A stretch of 64,000 bases of DNA from Desulfurivibrio sp. Its GTDB lineage: Bacteria > Desulfobacterota > Desulfobulbia > Desulfobulbales > SURF-16. Below the pieces are notes generated by a model. It saw only the letters and a program-made list of their open reading frames with translations. It was not told the origin of the DNA and ran no database searches. Shown here in pieces: positions 5,119-13,693 of the stretch. The position numbers were made by a program, and so were the translations under genes. Position 1 is the first letter of the stretch. Each line of letters opens with the position of its first letter. Location of the stretch: contig QZKJ01000060.1 of NCBI GenBank assembly GCA_003605035.1, forward strand, positions 1-64,000, in the 5' to 3' direction.

Positions 5119-6462
5119 TTACCGCCATACCCACTCTGTCTTCAGATCGAGTTTCTTTTCCTCTTGAAAGAAGATAACCTCATGGCCTTCAAATTCGCCA
5201 AACGGCACATACCAGATTTTAACTTCGACAACAAGCTCATCATTCACCAGTTCCCTGGTCTTTTTGCCGCCCTTTTCCACATCCTTATAAGGATAAGGGA
5301 TTTCAAAGGTTTCATGTACGGTTTTCAGCGGCGGCAGACTCGTTTCACGCAAGAGGCCACTCTTCTCGTACGGTCCCCTGCCCATTTCCGAGCCTCGGCC
5401 CATGCGGCCGGGATACGGCATAAAAATAACCTGATCTTTGTAAACTTCTTTCCCATCCGTTGTTTTGGCAGTCACATCCAGGACCAGCCTATTGGGAGTG
5501 GGTCAGCCGTCAGGGATGGTGTGCCCGGTCTTGTTCTTCATTTCAACATTGATGATGCCCATGGGAATAACGCCGTCGGCGCTGTTCTTGCGCCAGAACA
5601 GGGAGCGGCCGTCCACTTCGACATCCATGGCCATCTTGATCATCTCCTCACTGTTATAGGACTGCATGTCATGACCGAGCCCGGATTTCTTCATGTGGCA
5701 ATCCTGGCAGGTTTCATGTCCGCCTTCCGCAGTATAGGCAAAGAGATAACTGCCGTATAAAGTGGCGCACTGGGAAGGATGAGCCAGCTCGAAATTGGGT
5801 CCGGTGCCATGGCATTGACCGCAGAAGATCGATTCACCCAGAGCCGGGGCTTGAGCCATTTTCGGGAACTTCTCATCTTCATGGTCGCCGTCATTGGCGC
5901 CGTAAACCGTGTCAGGCTGGGGATAACCATCGGCCCACTTATGAATGATGGCCATCTTGTTGTGGCAGACCCGGCAATTGATATTCAGGCTGGCAATGGT
6001 CGCTTCCAGTTCGTCAGCCTTGTCATCGTCTTCATCCTTTTTGGCCTTCTGCCATCCCTTGATGGTGGCGACAATTTCCCGCGCCACATCGTCGGTGGCA
6101 TCCTCAAGCTGAGGGAGATGACACTTGGTGCACATGCGAAGATGCTCCACCGTAATGTCCTTATCCTCTTTCACGCCGGAATAGGGGAAATTCTTCAGAC
6201 CCACTTCAATGGCGGTGATGATGGTCGGCGCCGTTCTCGGCGTGCCCAGAATAGAATGAGAATGCAAGGAGTTTTCCCACTGATCATGGATCTCCTGATG
6301 GCATTCGATACACCCGCTGGAATCATAACGGGCAACAAGTTCCTTGATGGTCTTTGCCTTTGGTTCCGCCTCCGGTTTAGGGCCGCCCGCGCTGTATGCT
6401 CCGGACGTCCATAACGCCGTCATGGCAAATAAAGACATGCCAATTGTTGCAACTTTCTTCAT
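5119..6462 (-). CDS. Multihaem c-type cytochrome, ExtKL-like, probable selenoprotein (internal TGA = Sec)
   Basis: Periplasmic electron-transfer protein. The start is the ATG at 6462, preceded by AAAAGGAGGATTC; it opens a Sec signal (MKKVATIGMSLFAMTALW). Five CXXCH haem sites follow: CIECH (51-55), CTKCH, CRVCH, CGQCH, CQDCH. After GHTIPDG an in-frame TGA (5503-5505, residue 320) interrupts the frame, which stays open for another 127 codons (PTPNRLVLDV onward) to TAA at 5119. Both parts are in the same frame, so this is not a frameshift. From memory, public annotation uses the name 'multiheme c-type cytochrome (seleno)protein ExtKL' for the Geobacter family in which the two halves were split at a TGA. 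Reading it as selenocysteine gives 447 residues. No Sec machinery gene and no porin or lipoprotein partner lies nearby. The alternative is a genuine nonsense mutation. Confidence 0.82.
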
Positions 6463-6559
6463 GAATCCTCCTTTTCTTTTAATATTATCCTTTACTTCCC
6501 ACCTCGCACTTTTTTTTATCTTTAACATTGAACAGTTATCACTGTACAATCATGAGTAA

Positions 6560-9995: not shown

Positions 9996-10559
9996 ATGAA
10001 TGAAGCTACCCGGATCTCCATGGCGGATATATTCCGTTTTCTTGCCCAGGCGATGCGCTATCCTGCGGCAGAGTGGTTCAACGACGATTTTCAGTCAGTC
10101 CTGTTGCAGCTGCTTAACGAGCTGCACTGGCAGGAAGAGCAGGAAGAGTTGCGCCTGGCCATGGCCCGGGCGGAGAATTTTCTCGAGGATGTGCAGATTG
10201 AACATACCCGGCTCTTTATTAATGCGATTCCCCATGTGGCAGCCGCCCCCTATGCCTCGGTGCACTATAAAGGGGACGGCACCCTGTATGGAGCCATTGC
10301 TGAACAGACGAAGAAATTTTACCGCAGCAAGGGTTTTACCCTGGCCAGGGAAAACGATCTTCCTGATCATCTCGTTTATGAGCTGGAATTTCTGGCTTTA
10401 CTTGCCAAGGAAGATCCTGACGGGCAGCGGGAATTTCTGTACAGCCTGTTCACCCCGTGGTTTGACATTTTCAGAAATAAGGTTTTGAGGGAGGCTCACC
10501 ATCCTTATTATAGGATCGTGGTGAATTTAATTGACTTTTTTACGAGGGAGGAGCTGTAA
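9996..10559 (+). CDS. TorD/DmsD-family molybdoenzyme maturation chaperone
   Basis: 187-residue all-helical cytoplasmic chaperone that binds a Tat signal peptide and the apo-molybdoenzyme during cofactor insertion. Family marks are the EHTRLFINAIPHVAAAPYAS segment and DHLVYELEFLALLA. It ends one base before the ATG of the molybdopterin subunit, whose ribosome-binding site GGAGGAG lies inside its last codons. The gene order chaperone–catalytic subunit identifies the client. Confidence 0.9.
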   Translation: MNEATRISMADIFRFLAQAMRYPAAEWFNDDFQSVLLQLLNELHWQEEQEELRLAMARAENFLEDVQIEHTRLFINAIPHVAAAPYASVHYKGDGTLYGAIAEQTKKFYRSKGFTLARENDLPDHLVYELEFLALLAKEDPDGQREFLYSLFTPWFDIFRNKVLREAHHPYYRIVVNLIDFFTREEL

Positions 10560-10560
10560 C

Positions 10561-12792
10561 ATGTCTTTTAAGGTGACACGACGCAAATTCCTGCAAACCG
10601 CATCGCTCGCTGCCGCCACTTTACCACTTGCCAAAGTGGTGTCAGCAGAAACAGGGTTTGTCAGAGATCCCTTTACACCCCCGGGAAGTTTTGCGGGTAC
10701 GCAGACGGTAACCGGCGGCGTCTGTGAAATGTGTTTCTGGCGCTGTCAGCTGGTGGGGAAGGTCCGTGACAAGAAACTTGTCAAACTGGAAGGCAATCCG
10801 AAAAGCATTGATAACGGCAAATCAATCTGCGCCCGCGGTAATGCCGGCATCAAACTGCTGTATGACCCGGACCGCCTGAAATTCCCCTTGAAAAATATCG
10901 GGGAAAGAGGCAAGCCGGTCTGGAAACAGATTTCCTGGCAGGAGGCGCTTGACGAATGCGGCGCCAGACTGAAGGCTGTGCAGGAAAAATACGGCAGCCA
11001 CAGCATAGCCATGTTTCCCCATGGCGCCTCAGCCAAATATCCCATGGATTTCTTTGAGAAGGTAGTCGGCACCCACAATGTGAGCGAGGCCTCATTCTTC
11101 CAGTGCCGCGGCATCCGCGACAGCGCCTATATGGCAACGTTCAGTGTGCCGCCGGACGAGAGTGTTGACATGGCCAATGCCAAGGCCATTCTCTTGATCG
11201 GCTGTCATTTCGGGGAGAACGTGCATGTCTCCCACGTCAAGGCGTACCTCAAGGGCCTGGAAAATGGCGCCAGGCTCGTTGTTGTTGACCCGCGTTATTC
11301 CGCCTCAGCGGCAAAATCCCATATCTGGGTGCAGATCAAACCGGGAACAGATACCGCCTTTCTGCTTGCCGTCATGAACTACCTGGTGACAAAGGACAAA
11401 TATGACAAAAATTTTGTCAAGGCCCACTGCGTAGGGTTTGCCGAGTTTAAACAAGGCATCGCCCATGCCTCACTGGATTGGGCGGCAAAGATCTGCGATG
11501 TCCCGGCCCAACAGATCCAGGAGGTGGCTGAACTGCTGGCGGCCAATGCCCCCAACGTTTCCATCCATCCGGGGCGGCATGTGAGCTGGCATGGCAACGA
11601 TTTTCAACGTGTGCGCGCCCAGGCCTGCCTGACCGCTCTGCTTGGCGCAGTCGGCGTCAAGGGAGGGTTCGTCAAGCCGAAAGGGGTCAAGGTCAAGGGG
11701 ATCAGCTGGCCGGGCAGTGAACATGGCGGAGAATATAATCTGCGCCTGCTGGCTGACAAACACCATTACGCGCCCCCCGGGACACCGACCGAGTTGATCC
11801 GCGATGCCTGCATTTCGGGCAAGCCCTACCCGATCAAGGGTTGTGTGGTCTGGGGCCAGAATCCCATCCAGACCATTCCCAATCCGCAGAAAACCATCGC
11901 GGCCCTGCAGCAGATGGATTTTGTCATGTGCGTGGATATCATGCCCACCGACATCACCATGTATGCCGACATCCTGCTGCCGGAGCCCTGTTATCTGGAA
12001 AAATATGATTTCATCAAAACAGGCACCCAGTGGAATTTTGCCGACAAGCATCAGCAGTACATCGCCCCCAGGATGCCGCTGGTGGATGCCATGTTCGAGC
12101 GCAGGGACGGCGTCTGGATCATGAATGAAATTGCCAGGCGCATGGGCCATGGGGACAAGATTCCCGTCAACAGCGTGGAAGAAAAGGTCAACAAGGAGCT
12201 CGCCGCGGTCAATCTTTCCATTGACCAGCTGAAAAAAGAAGACGGCATTCATATTCAGGACGGCAAGGATCCCTATGGCGTGGAAGAGGACTTCGAGGTT
12301 CTGCTGTACAATGAGGATCTGGAGGACAACGGTTATCCGGCGGTGCCCACCTACATCGCGGTCGACGATGCGCCGAAGGGGTTTGCCCGGCTGGTTTACG
12401 GCCGGGCGCCGGTGCATACCTTCAACCGCAGCCAGAACAATGTCTGGCTGCATCATGCCATGCCGGTGAATCCTCTGTGGCTCAATGATGAAATTGCCAG
12501 GGAAATGGGCCTGCAGGATGGCGATGAGATTGAACTGGTCAACAGCGAAGGCGTCAAGTCATCCTCCAAGACAGTGGTCAAGGTTACCCCCGGCATCCGT
12601 AAGGATACCGTATATATGGCCCATGGCTATGGTTCCAGAAATCCCCTGTTGACGCTTGGTTTCCACGCCGGCGCTGATGATCAGGAACTGATCACCAGGC
12701 TGGCGATTGATCCGGAGACTGGCTGCAACGGCATGCGCAACAATTTTGTCAAAATTGTTAAAGATGGAAAAGCACTTGATATCCCAGCATAA
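10561..12792 (+). CDS. Tat-exported molybdopterin oxidoreductase, PsrA/PhsA-type catalytic subunit
   Basis: 743-residue bis-molybdopterin enzyme of the DMSO-reductase superfamily. The start at 10561 gives a Tat signal (TRRKFLQTASLAAATLPLA); an ATG 30 nt upstream would bury it. Cys55, Cys58, Cys62 and Cys90 form the N-terminal [4Fe-4S] site. Cys182 in SFFQCRGIRD is the likely Mo ligand, as in polysulfide/thiosulfate reductases. The C-terminal cofactor-binding domain spans ~610-740. With the ferredoxin subunit downstream it should form a periplasmic AB enzyme acting on an inorganic sulfur compound or similar oxyanion. No NrfD-type membrane subunit is present. Substrate (polysulfide, thiosulfate, tetrathionate, other) is not resolvable here. 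Confidence 0.9.
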   Translation: MSFKVTRRKFLQTASLAAATLPLAKVVSAETGFVRDPFTPPGSFAGTQTVTGGVCEMCFWRCQLVGKVRDKKLVKLEGNPKSIDNGKSICARGNAGIKLLYDPDRLKFPLKNIGERGKPVWKQISWQEALDECGARLKAVQEKYGSHSIAMFPHGASAKYPMDFFEKVVGTHNVSEASFFQCRGIRDSAYMATFSVPPDESVDMANAKAILLIGCHFGENVHVSHVKAYLKGLENGARLVVVDPRYSASAAKSHIWVQIKPGTDTAFLLAVMNYLVTKDKYDKNFVKAHCVGFAEFKQGIAHASLDWAAKICDVPAQQIQEVAELLAANAPNVSIHPGRHVSWHGNDFQRVRAQACLTALLGAVGVKGGFVKPKGVKVKGISWPGSEHGGEYNLRLLADKHHYAPPGTPTELIRDACISGKPYPIKGCVVWGQNPIQTIPNPQKTIAALQQMDFVMCVDIMPTDITMYADILLPEPCYLEKYDFIKTGTQWNFADKHQQYIAPRMPLVDAMFERRDGVWIMNEIARRMGHGDKIPVNSVEEKVNKELAAVNLSIDQLKKEDGIHIQDGKDPYGVEEDFEVLLYNEDLEDNGYPAVPTYIAVDDAPKGFARLVYGRAPVHTFNRSQNNVWLHHAMPVNPLWLNDEIAREMGLQDGDEIELVNSEGVKSSSKTVVKVTPGIRKDTVYMAHGYGSRNPLLTLGFHAGADDQELITRLAIDPETGCNGMRNNFVKIVKDGKALDIPA

Positions 12793-12886
12793 TCTGCGTT
12801 TGAGTCCACCGGAAGCTTACGTTTTCCGCCTAAATAGTTTATAGAGACTCTAACGACTGATACGTCATCAAGGAGGTATAAACCTT

Positions 12887-13693
12887 ATGCAGTACGGAAT
12901 GATTATCGATTTAGATAGATGTGTGGGATGTCATGCCTGCACAATTGCCTGCAAGGCGGAATGGGACGTCCCGGCCGATAAGGAACGTAACTGGGTCAGA
13001 CGTCTTGGCCCGGCCAATACGCCGGAAGGTCTTGCCTCAACCTATTACCCGGGTTTATGCAATCACTGCAATGAGCCTTCCTGTGTGCCTGTCTGTCCGG
13101 CTGATGCCATTGAGAAAACCTTCACGGACGGCAAAACCGGCCAAACCAAAACCATGGAGGTTGCCGCCACCTACAAGGATCCCTTTAACGGCACCGTGCA
13201 GATCGACCAGGACCGCTGCCTCGGCTGCGGCGCCTGTGCCGATGCCTGCCCTTATGGGGCACGCTATGTCAACACCGATATCAAGAATGAGGAGATCGGT
13301 GGAGAGGGCATCGCTGACAAATGCACCTACTGCATGCCGAGGGTGGCCAAGGGTCTTGAACCCTCATGCGTACAGACCTGCCTGGCTAATGCCCGCATTT
13401 TCGGCGACCTTGACGATCCCAACTCGGAGGTGGCCAGGTATGTGAAAAAAGGCGCCAAGGGGCTTACTTCAGCGGCCGTCAATATCAGACCGAACAGCCG
13501 TTATTATGGCAACAGGAAGGATATGCATCTGCTGACCACCACCAGCACGCCAACCGAGATGCCGGCCGCTTCGCTGCGCCGGAGCCTCATGGCCCGGCTG
13601 AAACCCGAGCTGCGCAAGGTGAAAAACCTTGGCCTGCTCGGCCTGGCCGGCGCCGTCCTGGTTGCTGGTTCCGATGAAGGCAGCAATGAGTAG
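12887..13693 (+). CDS. Four-cluster ferredoxin-like electron-transfer subunit of the molybdoenzyme
   Basis: 268-residue DmsB/PsrB/NrfC-type iron-sulfur protein that passes electrons to or from the molybdenum subunit. Four Cys groups are visible: CVGCHACTIAC (12-22), CNHCNEPSCVPVC, CLGCGACADAC and CTYC with CVQTC. It has no export signal of its own, as expected for a partner carried by the Tat-signal subunit. The C-terminus has a short hydrophobic stretch (NLGLLGLAGAVLVAG) that might contact the membrane. AAGGAGGT lies just upstream of the ATG. It follows the catalytic gene by 94 nt and ends at a strong terminator. Confidence 0.93.
   Translation: MQYGMIIDLDRCVGCHACTIACKAEWDVPADKERNWVRRLGPANTPEGLASTYYPGLCNHCNEPSCVPVCPADAIEKTFTDGKTGQTKTMEVAATYKDPFNGTVQIDQDRCLGCGACADACPYGARYVNTDIKNEEIGGEGIADKCTYCMPRVAKGLEPSCVQTCLANARIFGDLDDPNSEVARYVKKGAKGLTSAAVNIRPNSRYYGNRKDMHLLTTTSTPTEMPAASLRRSLMARLKPELRKVKNLGLLGLAGAVLVAGSDEGSNE

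Follow-up and report, generated by a model that had tools for sequence, protein, structure and literature searches.

A stand-alone ExtKL-family pentahaem cytochrome of Desulfurivibrio sp. with a well-supported selenocysteine codon and a putative SECIS

The best described relative of the gene analysed here is ExtKL of Geobacter sulfurreducens (GSU2937-GSU2936), a putative pentahaem selenoprotein (PMC5877670, PMC6148476). The family was flagged in 2007 for its in-frame TGA, the meaning of which was then unknown (PMC1914089), and it is listed among the predicted families in a 2026 review of selenoproteomes (PMC13188914). In Geobacter, extKL is part of the extHIJKLMNOPQS cluster, and the link to selenite comes from the operon, from an extI mutant, and from a preliminary remark of the authors on extKL itself. 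According to PMC11976967, the pentahaem cytochrome c552 of Thermochromatium tepidum (5ZE8) is related to ExtKL in structure. Additionally, the PDB holds sequences of MccSep, a "multiheme cytochrome c selenoprotein" (9WT8, 9WTA, and 9WTB), together with its U325A mutants (9WT9 and 9WTC); no publication on MccSep was found in a literature search.

The window, that is, the whole stretch of 64,000 nucleotides analysed (contig QZKJ01000060.1 of a Desulfurivibrio sp. assembly), carries an ExtKL-like gene on its minus strand (Table 1). The sole stop inside the frame that runs from the ATG at 6462 to the TAA at 5119-5121 is the TGA at 5503-5505, codon 320 of 447, after which 127 sense codons follow; the frame, its single break, and the length beyond it were thus reproduced exactly as the original prediction gave them. 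The ATG is preceded by a strong Shine-Dalgarno-like stretch (AAAGGAGGATTC), and the signal-peptide-like N-terminus (MKKVATIGMSLFAMTALWTSGAYS) suggests that the product is exported to the periplasm. The read-through protein matches the NCBI family NF040886, "(seleno)protein ExtKL", with 592.6 bits against a cut-off of 250 (E 3.2e-178), and the match is one stretch that spans the TGA and covers profile positions 10-423 of 423. The likeness to Geobacter ExtK/ExtL given in the original prediction is therefore correct, as are the other main points of that prediction, and it extends to the five CXXCH motifs, the Sec/TGA at the same place, and the same C-terminal domain. We conclude with very high confidence that this is an ExtKL-family gene for an exported cytochrome with five haems, and that its UGA 320 is read as selenocysteine; this confidence covers the selenoprotein identity and the family membership, not the substrate. 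The family itself is already known and the window gene is a further member; what is new here is the putative SECIS, the exchange counts at the Sec column, and the stand-alone context.

Table 1. Coordinates of the ExtKL-like gene and its features in the window
Feature	Positions	Strand	Basis or remark
extKL-like gene	5119..6462	minus	periplasmic pentahaem c-type cytochrome selenoprotein, 447 aa, Sec at 320, TAA 5119-5121
Shine-Dalgarno-like stretch AAAGGAGGATTC 5' of ATG	6463..6474	minus	sequence
N-terminal signal-peptide-like stretch MKKVATIGMSLFAMTALWTSGAYS	6391..6462	minus	sequence; helix 2-21 in AlphaFold model
Haem motif 1, CIECH, residues 51-55	6298..6312	minus	invariant among 71 sequences
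Haem motif 2, CTKCH, residues 111-115	6118..6132	minus	invariant among 71 sequences
Haem motif 3, CRVCH, residues 163-167	5962..5976	minus	invariant among 71 sequences
Haem motif 4, CGQCH, residues 214-218	5809..5823	minus	invariant among 71 sequences
Cys232 outside the haem motifs, may form a selenenylsulfide with Sec320 (inferred)	5767..5769	minus	invariant, 71/71 sequences
Haem motif 5, CQDCH, residues 252-256	5695..5709	minus	invariant among 71 sequences
His314 of GH-IPDGU, six positions ahead of Sec; probably a distal ligand of a haem	5521..5523	minus	71/71 sequences; ligation inferred
In-frame TGA = Sec codon 320, motif GHTIPDGU-PTPNR	5503..5505	minus	of 136 homologous frames, 122 have TGA and 11 have Cys
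Putative bacterial SECIS, GGC-(bulged U)-GGUCC-loop UGGAU-G-(U)-GACU-GCC	5467..5489	minus	comparative + thermodynamic; apical loop 22 nt after UGA

The AlphaFold model of the read-through protein has a mean pLDDT of 92.6 and stays at high confidence across the TGA junction. A Foldseek comparison of this model with the PDB (library to April 2026) gave partial matches to the beta domain only, and 9WT8 was absent among the matches listed; Pfam recognised only general haem-cytochrome domains. At the level of sequence, the MccSep entries match window protein residues 34-439 with E about 1e-153. MccSep comes from another organism. A non-standard residue stands in it at the position of residue 320, replaced by Ala in the U325A mutants, and this is the strongest outside evidence for selenocysteine in the ExtKL family. 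Cytochrome c552 of T. tepidum is a remote relative (profile E 6.7e-20) that shares the haem part and the H-xxPxG-x-P loop, with a His aligned to His314; it differs in having Ala at the Sec position, and two partial stretches alone align.

The search for homologues covered 395 genomes from the phylum, 258 from the order, and 41 from another class; it yielded 136 member frames. At the column of the in-frame TGA, 122 of them carry TGA, 11 Cys (encoded by TGT in those printed), one Ile, and one Val, and one frame is cut off before the column; neither TAA, TAG, nor TGG was seen there in any of the 136. The frames continue past this column, and the U/C exchange that was to be expected of a selenoprotein is thus present, while the opposite outcome, homologues that stop at this position, did not occur. 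A number of the members with Cys, Ile, or Val occur as paralogues beside the TGA form in one and the same genome. Two paralogues have Ile or Val, so the residue at this column is dispensable in some of them. The dN/dS of the window gene against seven relatives, two of which (L051 and L086) gave identical values and represent the same genome, was 0.05-0.15 after the TGA versus 0.06-0.10 before it. Purifying selection is hence as evident 3' of the TGA as 5' of it, which indicates that the downstream part is translated protein and goes beyond an open frame kept by chance. Together with the TGA/Cys exchange, these values bear out the preference for selenocysteine over decay.

Some members of the alignment depart from the common pattern. 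Tandem non-Sec paralogues occur in G027 (L054:2884-5641) and G203 (L070), where one copy has Ile or Val and PDS replaces PDG-U; in G027, the copy next to the PDS-type paralogue carries Cys. Two members (L112 and L125) each contain a second in-frame TGA where Sec is not conserved; point changes or assembly errors are the probable cause. A Cys-bearing member (L069, G289 contig C11) has an in-frame TAA upstream, which suggests either a broken gene or an error in the sequence, and a TGA-bearing member (L072, G088 contig C8) is split in two frames just past the Sec codon, probably by a frameshift or an assembly error.

The sequence that follows the TGA shows the strongest synonymous constraint in the gene. 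Third-base entropy was computed for 121 distinct TGA members at 105 fourfold-degenerate columns, and the five lowest values belong to codons +6, +7, +8, +10, and +11 after the TGA (0.00, 0.57, 0.21, 0.29, and 0.47 bits, respectively; the median over the gene is 1.80). Among the 13 members without Sec, codons +6 and +8 stand at 1.85 and 1.50 bits, while codon +7 (nine sequences) stays low. The constraint coincides with a hairpin at 5489-5467 (-8.4 kcal/mol, loop UGGAU, bulged U at 5486), whose core pairs 21-36, 22-35, 23-34, and 24-33, counted from the T of the TGA, are all kept in 113 of the 121 TGA members versus one of the 13 others. Synonymous constraint and stem are thus largely lost in non-Sec members. 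In two members, G-C replaces C-G at pair 24-33, with both sides changed; as the stem is almost invariant, mutual information between its columns tells little. Of the 121 TGA members, 117 have G at base 27, all have G or U at base 28, and 119 have A at base 29, a pattern that agrees with the G[G|U] signature published for the loop.

The window hairpin shares with the bacterial SECIS model, i.e., the bSECISearch constraints as reviewed in PMC13188914, all four limits: a loop of 5 nt (UGGAU) whose second base is G, an upper stem of 5 bp, a spacing of 22 nt, and the folding energy of -8.4 kcal/mol. Against synonymous-codon shuffles, the lowest mean z of 38 folding windows (-0.97) was found for the one that starts with the TGA. 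Base-pair probabilities are about 0.6 in longer context, so that the fold of the single sequence is in itself modest evidence; it is the comparison of homologues that gives the putative SECIS at 5489-5467 strong support. An Rfam search of 5430-5520 matched no family, which means only that no curated family covers the hairpin. As to the original prediction, which had noted a weak hairpin AGG-CUGGU-CCU downstream of the TGA and left the SECIS unproven, a downstream hairpin is predicted and conserved, but the structure named was the wrong one: it differs from the fold of lowest energy and is also missing from the three folds listed within 1.5 kcal/mol.

The genome that contains the window (4.2 Mb, 118 contigs, 93.6% complete) has the full Sec machinery. 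selC scored 71.1 bits, with anticodon TCA according to ARAGORN, and selB (362.9 bits), selA (620), and selD (379.6) are likewise all above cut-off, so the absence of such genes, which would have spoken against selenocysteine, was not encountered. The selD gene (L018:1501-2427) has itself an in-frame TGA, as known for selenoprotein SelD. In the phylum sample, selA is present in 40 of the 40 genomes with full ExtKL and also in 315 of the 355 others; with a base rate of 355 in 395 genomes (90%), the co-occurrence of ExtKL and selA provides weak support. One TGA-bearing genome (G506) gave no selA match, yet it has a tRNA-Sec.

Two explanations of the TGA other than selenocysteine have to be weighed. 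The codon could be a true stop, either because the gene is decaying or because ExtK and ExtL are separate genes, with a downstream frame that is separately started or dead. A GTG at 5475 could indeed open a frame of 118 aa, and two locus tags, with the separate names ExtK and ExtL, are in use for the Geobacter gene; nevertheless, TGA in 122 of 136 frames at a single column with Cys in 11, the purifying selection 3' of the TGA, and the synonymous constraint specific to TGA members are grounds to reject decay or two genes as an explanation, and the confident single model over the junction and the single chain in the solved MccSep speak against it as well, so we consider it very improbable. Even less credit can be given to the reading of UGA as an ordinary amino acid, by a suppressor tRNA or a reassigned code. 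The frame would be open whatever residue the TGA encodes, but such readthrough is at odds with the full Sec machinery in the genome, the confinement of the SECIS-like constraint to TGA members, the usual replacement by Cys, and the non-standard residue at this site in MccSep; readthrough as Trp in particular predicts an exchange with TGG that was not seen. The annotation-breaking TGA is thus settled as a Sec codon and a putative SECIS is supplied that no RNA library covers, which makes split ExtK/ExtL gene models correctable in many genomes.

In contrast to the Geobacter gene with its ext neighbours, the window gene is a solitary one, flanked by hom and tolQRAB. The same neighbours flank the relative L051, which belongs to the same genome as G620 by the dN/dS values, while other members of the genus and family of L051 have different ones. 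Most close relatives looked at are also devoid of ext neighbours; two members (L180 and L181) lie within an ext cluster, and the neighbours of L181 are ExtH, ExtI, ExtM, and ExtN/ExtO according to NCBIfam. No porin and outer-surface cytochrome of a porin-cytochrome conduit were found adjoining the window gene. A profile made from two ExtI sequences, which matched both genomes of origin (E 1e-261 to 1e-263) and a third genome (E 3e-173), detected nothing in the 93.6%-complete genome, from which a contig may be missing. The absence of adjacent conduit genes, pointed out beforehand as a difference from Geobacter, is therefore borne out and, for ExtI, holds for the whole genome as assembled. Location in an ext operon (selenite/tellurite reduction) is a feature of Geobacter, not required by NF040886. 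Stand-alone members without ExtI imply that ExtKL need not depend on the ExtI porin. No plasmid-borne relatives were found.

From these observations, a mechanism may be proposed. On comparative grounds, the hairpin that starts 13 nt after the UGA would recruit SelB with Sec-tRNA. Sec320 belongs to the conserved loop GH-IPDG-U, where the C-terminal beta domain begins, and is six residues from His314; this probable ligand would place it beside a haem, and electrons could pass along the haem chain to the haem-adjacent selenol and on to a small oxidant such as selenite, another oxyanion, or a metalloid. In the genome of the window, ExtKL would act in this way without the ExtI porin. A function as a periplasmic reductase of a small oxidant by means of selenol and haem has, in our estimate, about an even chance of being correct. 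A selenol beside a haem chain would be unusual chemistry, and the existing solved structure of MccSep makes it testable.

The main rival to such a selenol-reductase function is a selenoprotein whose Sec is structural or ligates a haem, and which would serve as a plain electron shuttle to other cytochromes or extracellular acceptors. Pentahaem cytochromes of this kind have been proposed for extracellular electron transport, and only three His outside the motifs (His67, His264, and His314) are invariant in the 71-sequence alignment, so that with five haems, one of them could take another ligand. On the other hand, H174 and H194 are found in 56 and 59 of the 71 members, respectively, and both are present in the window protein, which makes five His ligands available; the replacement of Sec by Ile or Val in paralogues and the lack of conduit genes nearby and of ExtI in the genome also weigh against a shuttle, and we regard it as rather unlikely. 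Going further than the selenol reductase as such, one may speculate that ExtKL, where it lies outside the ext operon, works independently as a periplasmic selenoenzyme that has a substrate of its own and an active site made of Sec320 with Cys232 or with the haem of His314, and that an arsenic-linked paralogous clade acts on arsenic species; this broader proposal is tentative and, as a whole, improbable.

The clade in question (L177, L178, L179, L182, L187, L190, L191, L192, and L193) is a distinct ExtKL-like group with the loop PDGU-P[ST][RK], and its members are 32-39% identical to the window gene. Genes for the transport or reduction of arsenic (ACR3, ArsP, and ArsC) occur within ~10 kb in nine of 11 loci looked at. 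In the clade of the window gene, all three are absent from the eight loci that lie outside the ext cluster, though one of these loci (L077) has an ArsM-like match. Elsewhere in the window, positions 9996-13693 hold a chaperone-like gene, a molybdopterin oxidoreductase, and a 4Fe-4S ferredoxin subunit, which from their translations look like a respiratory operon.
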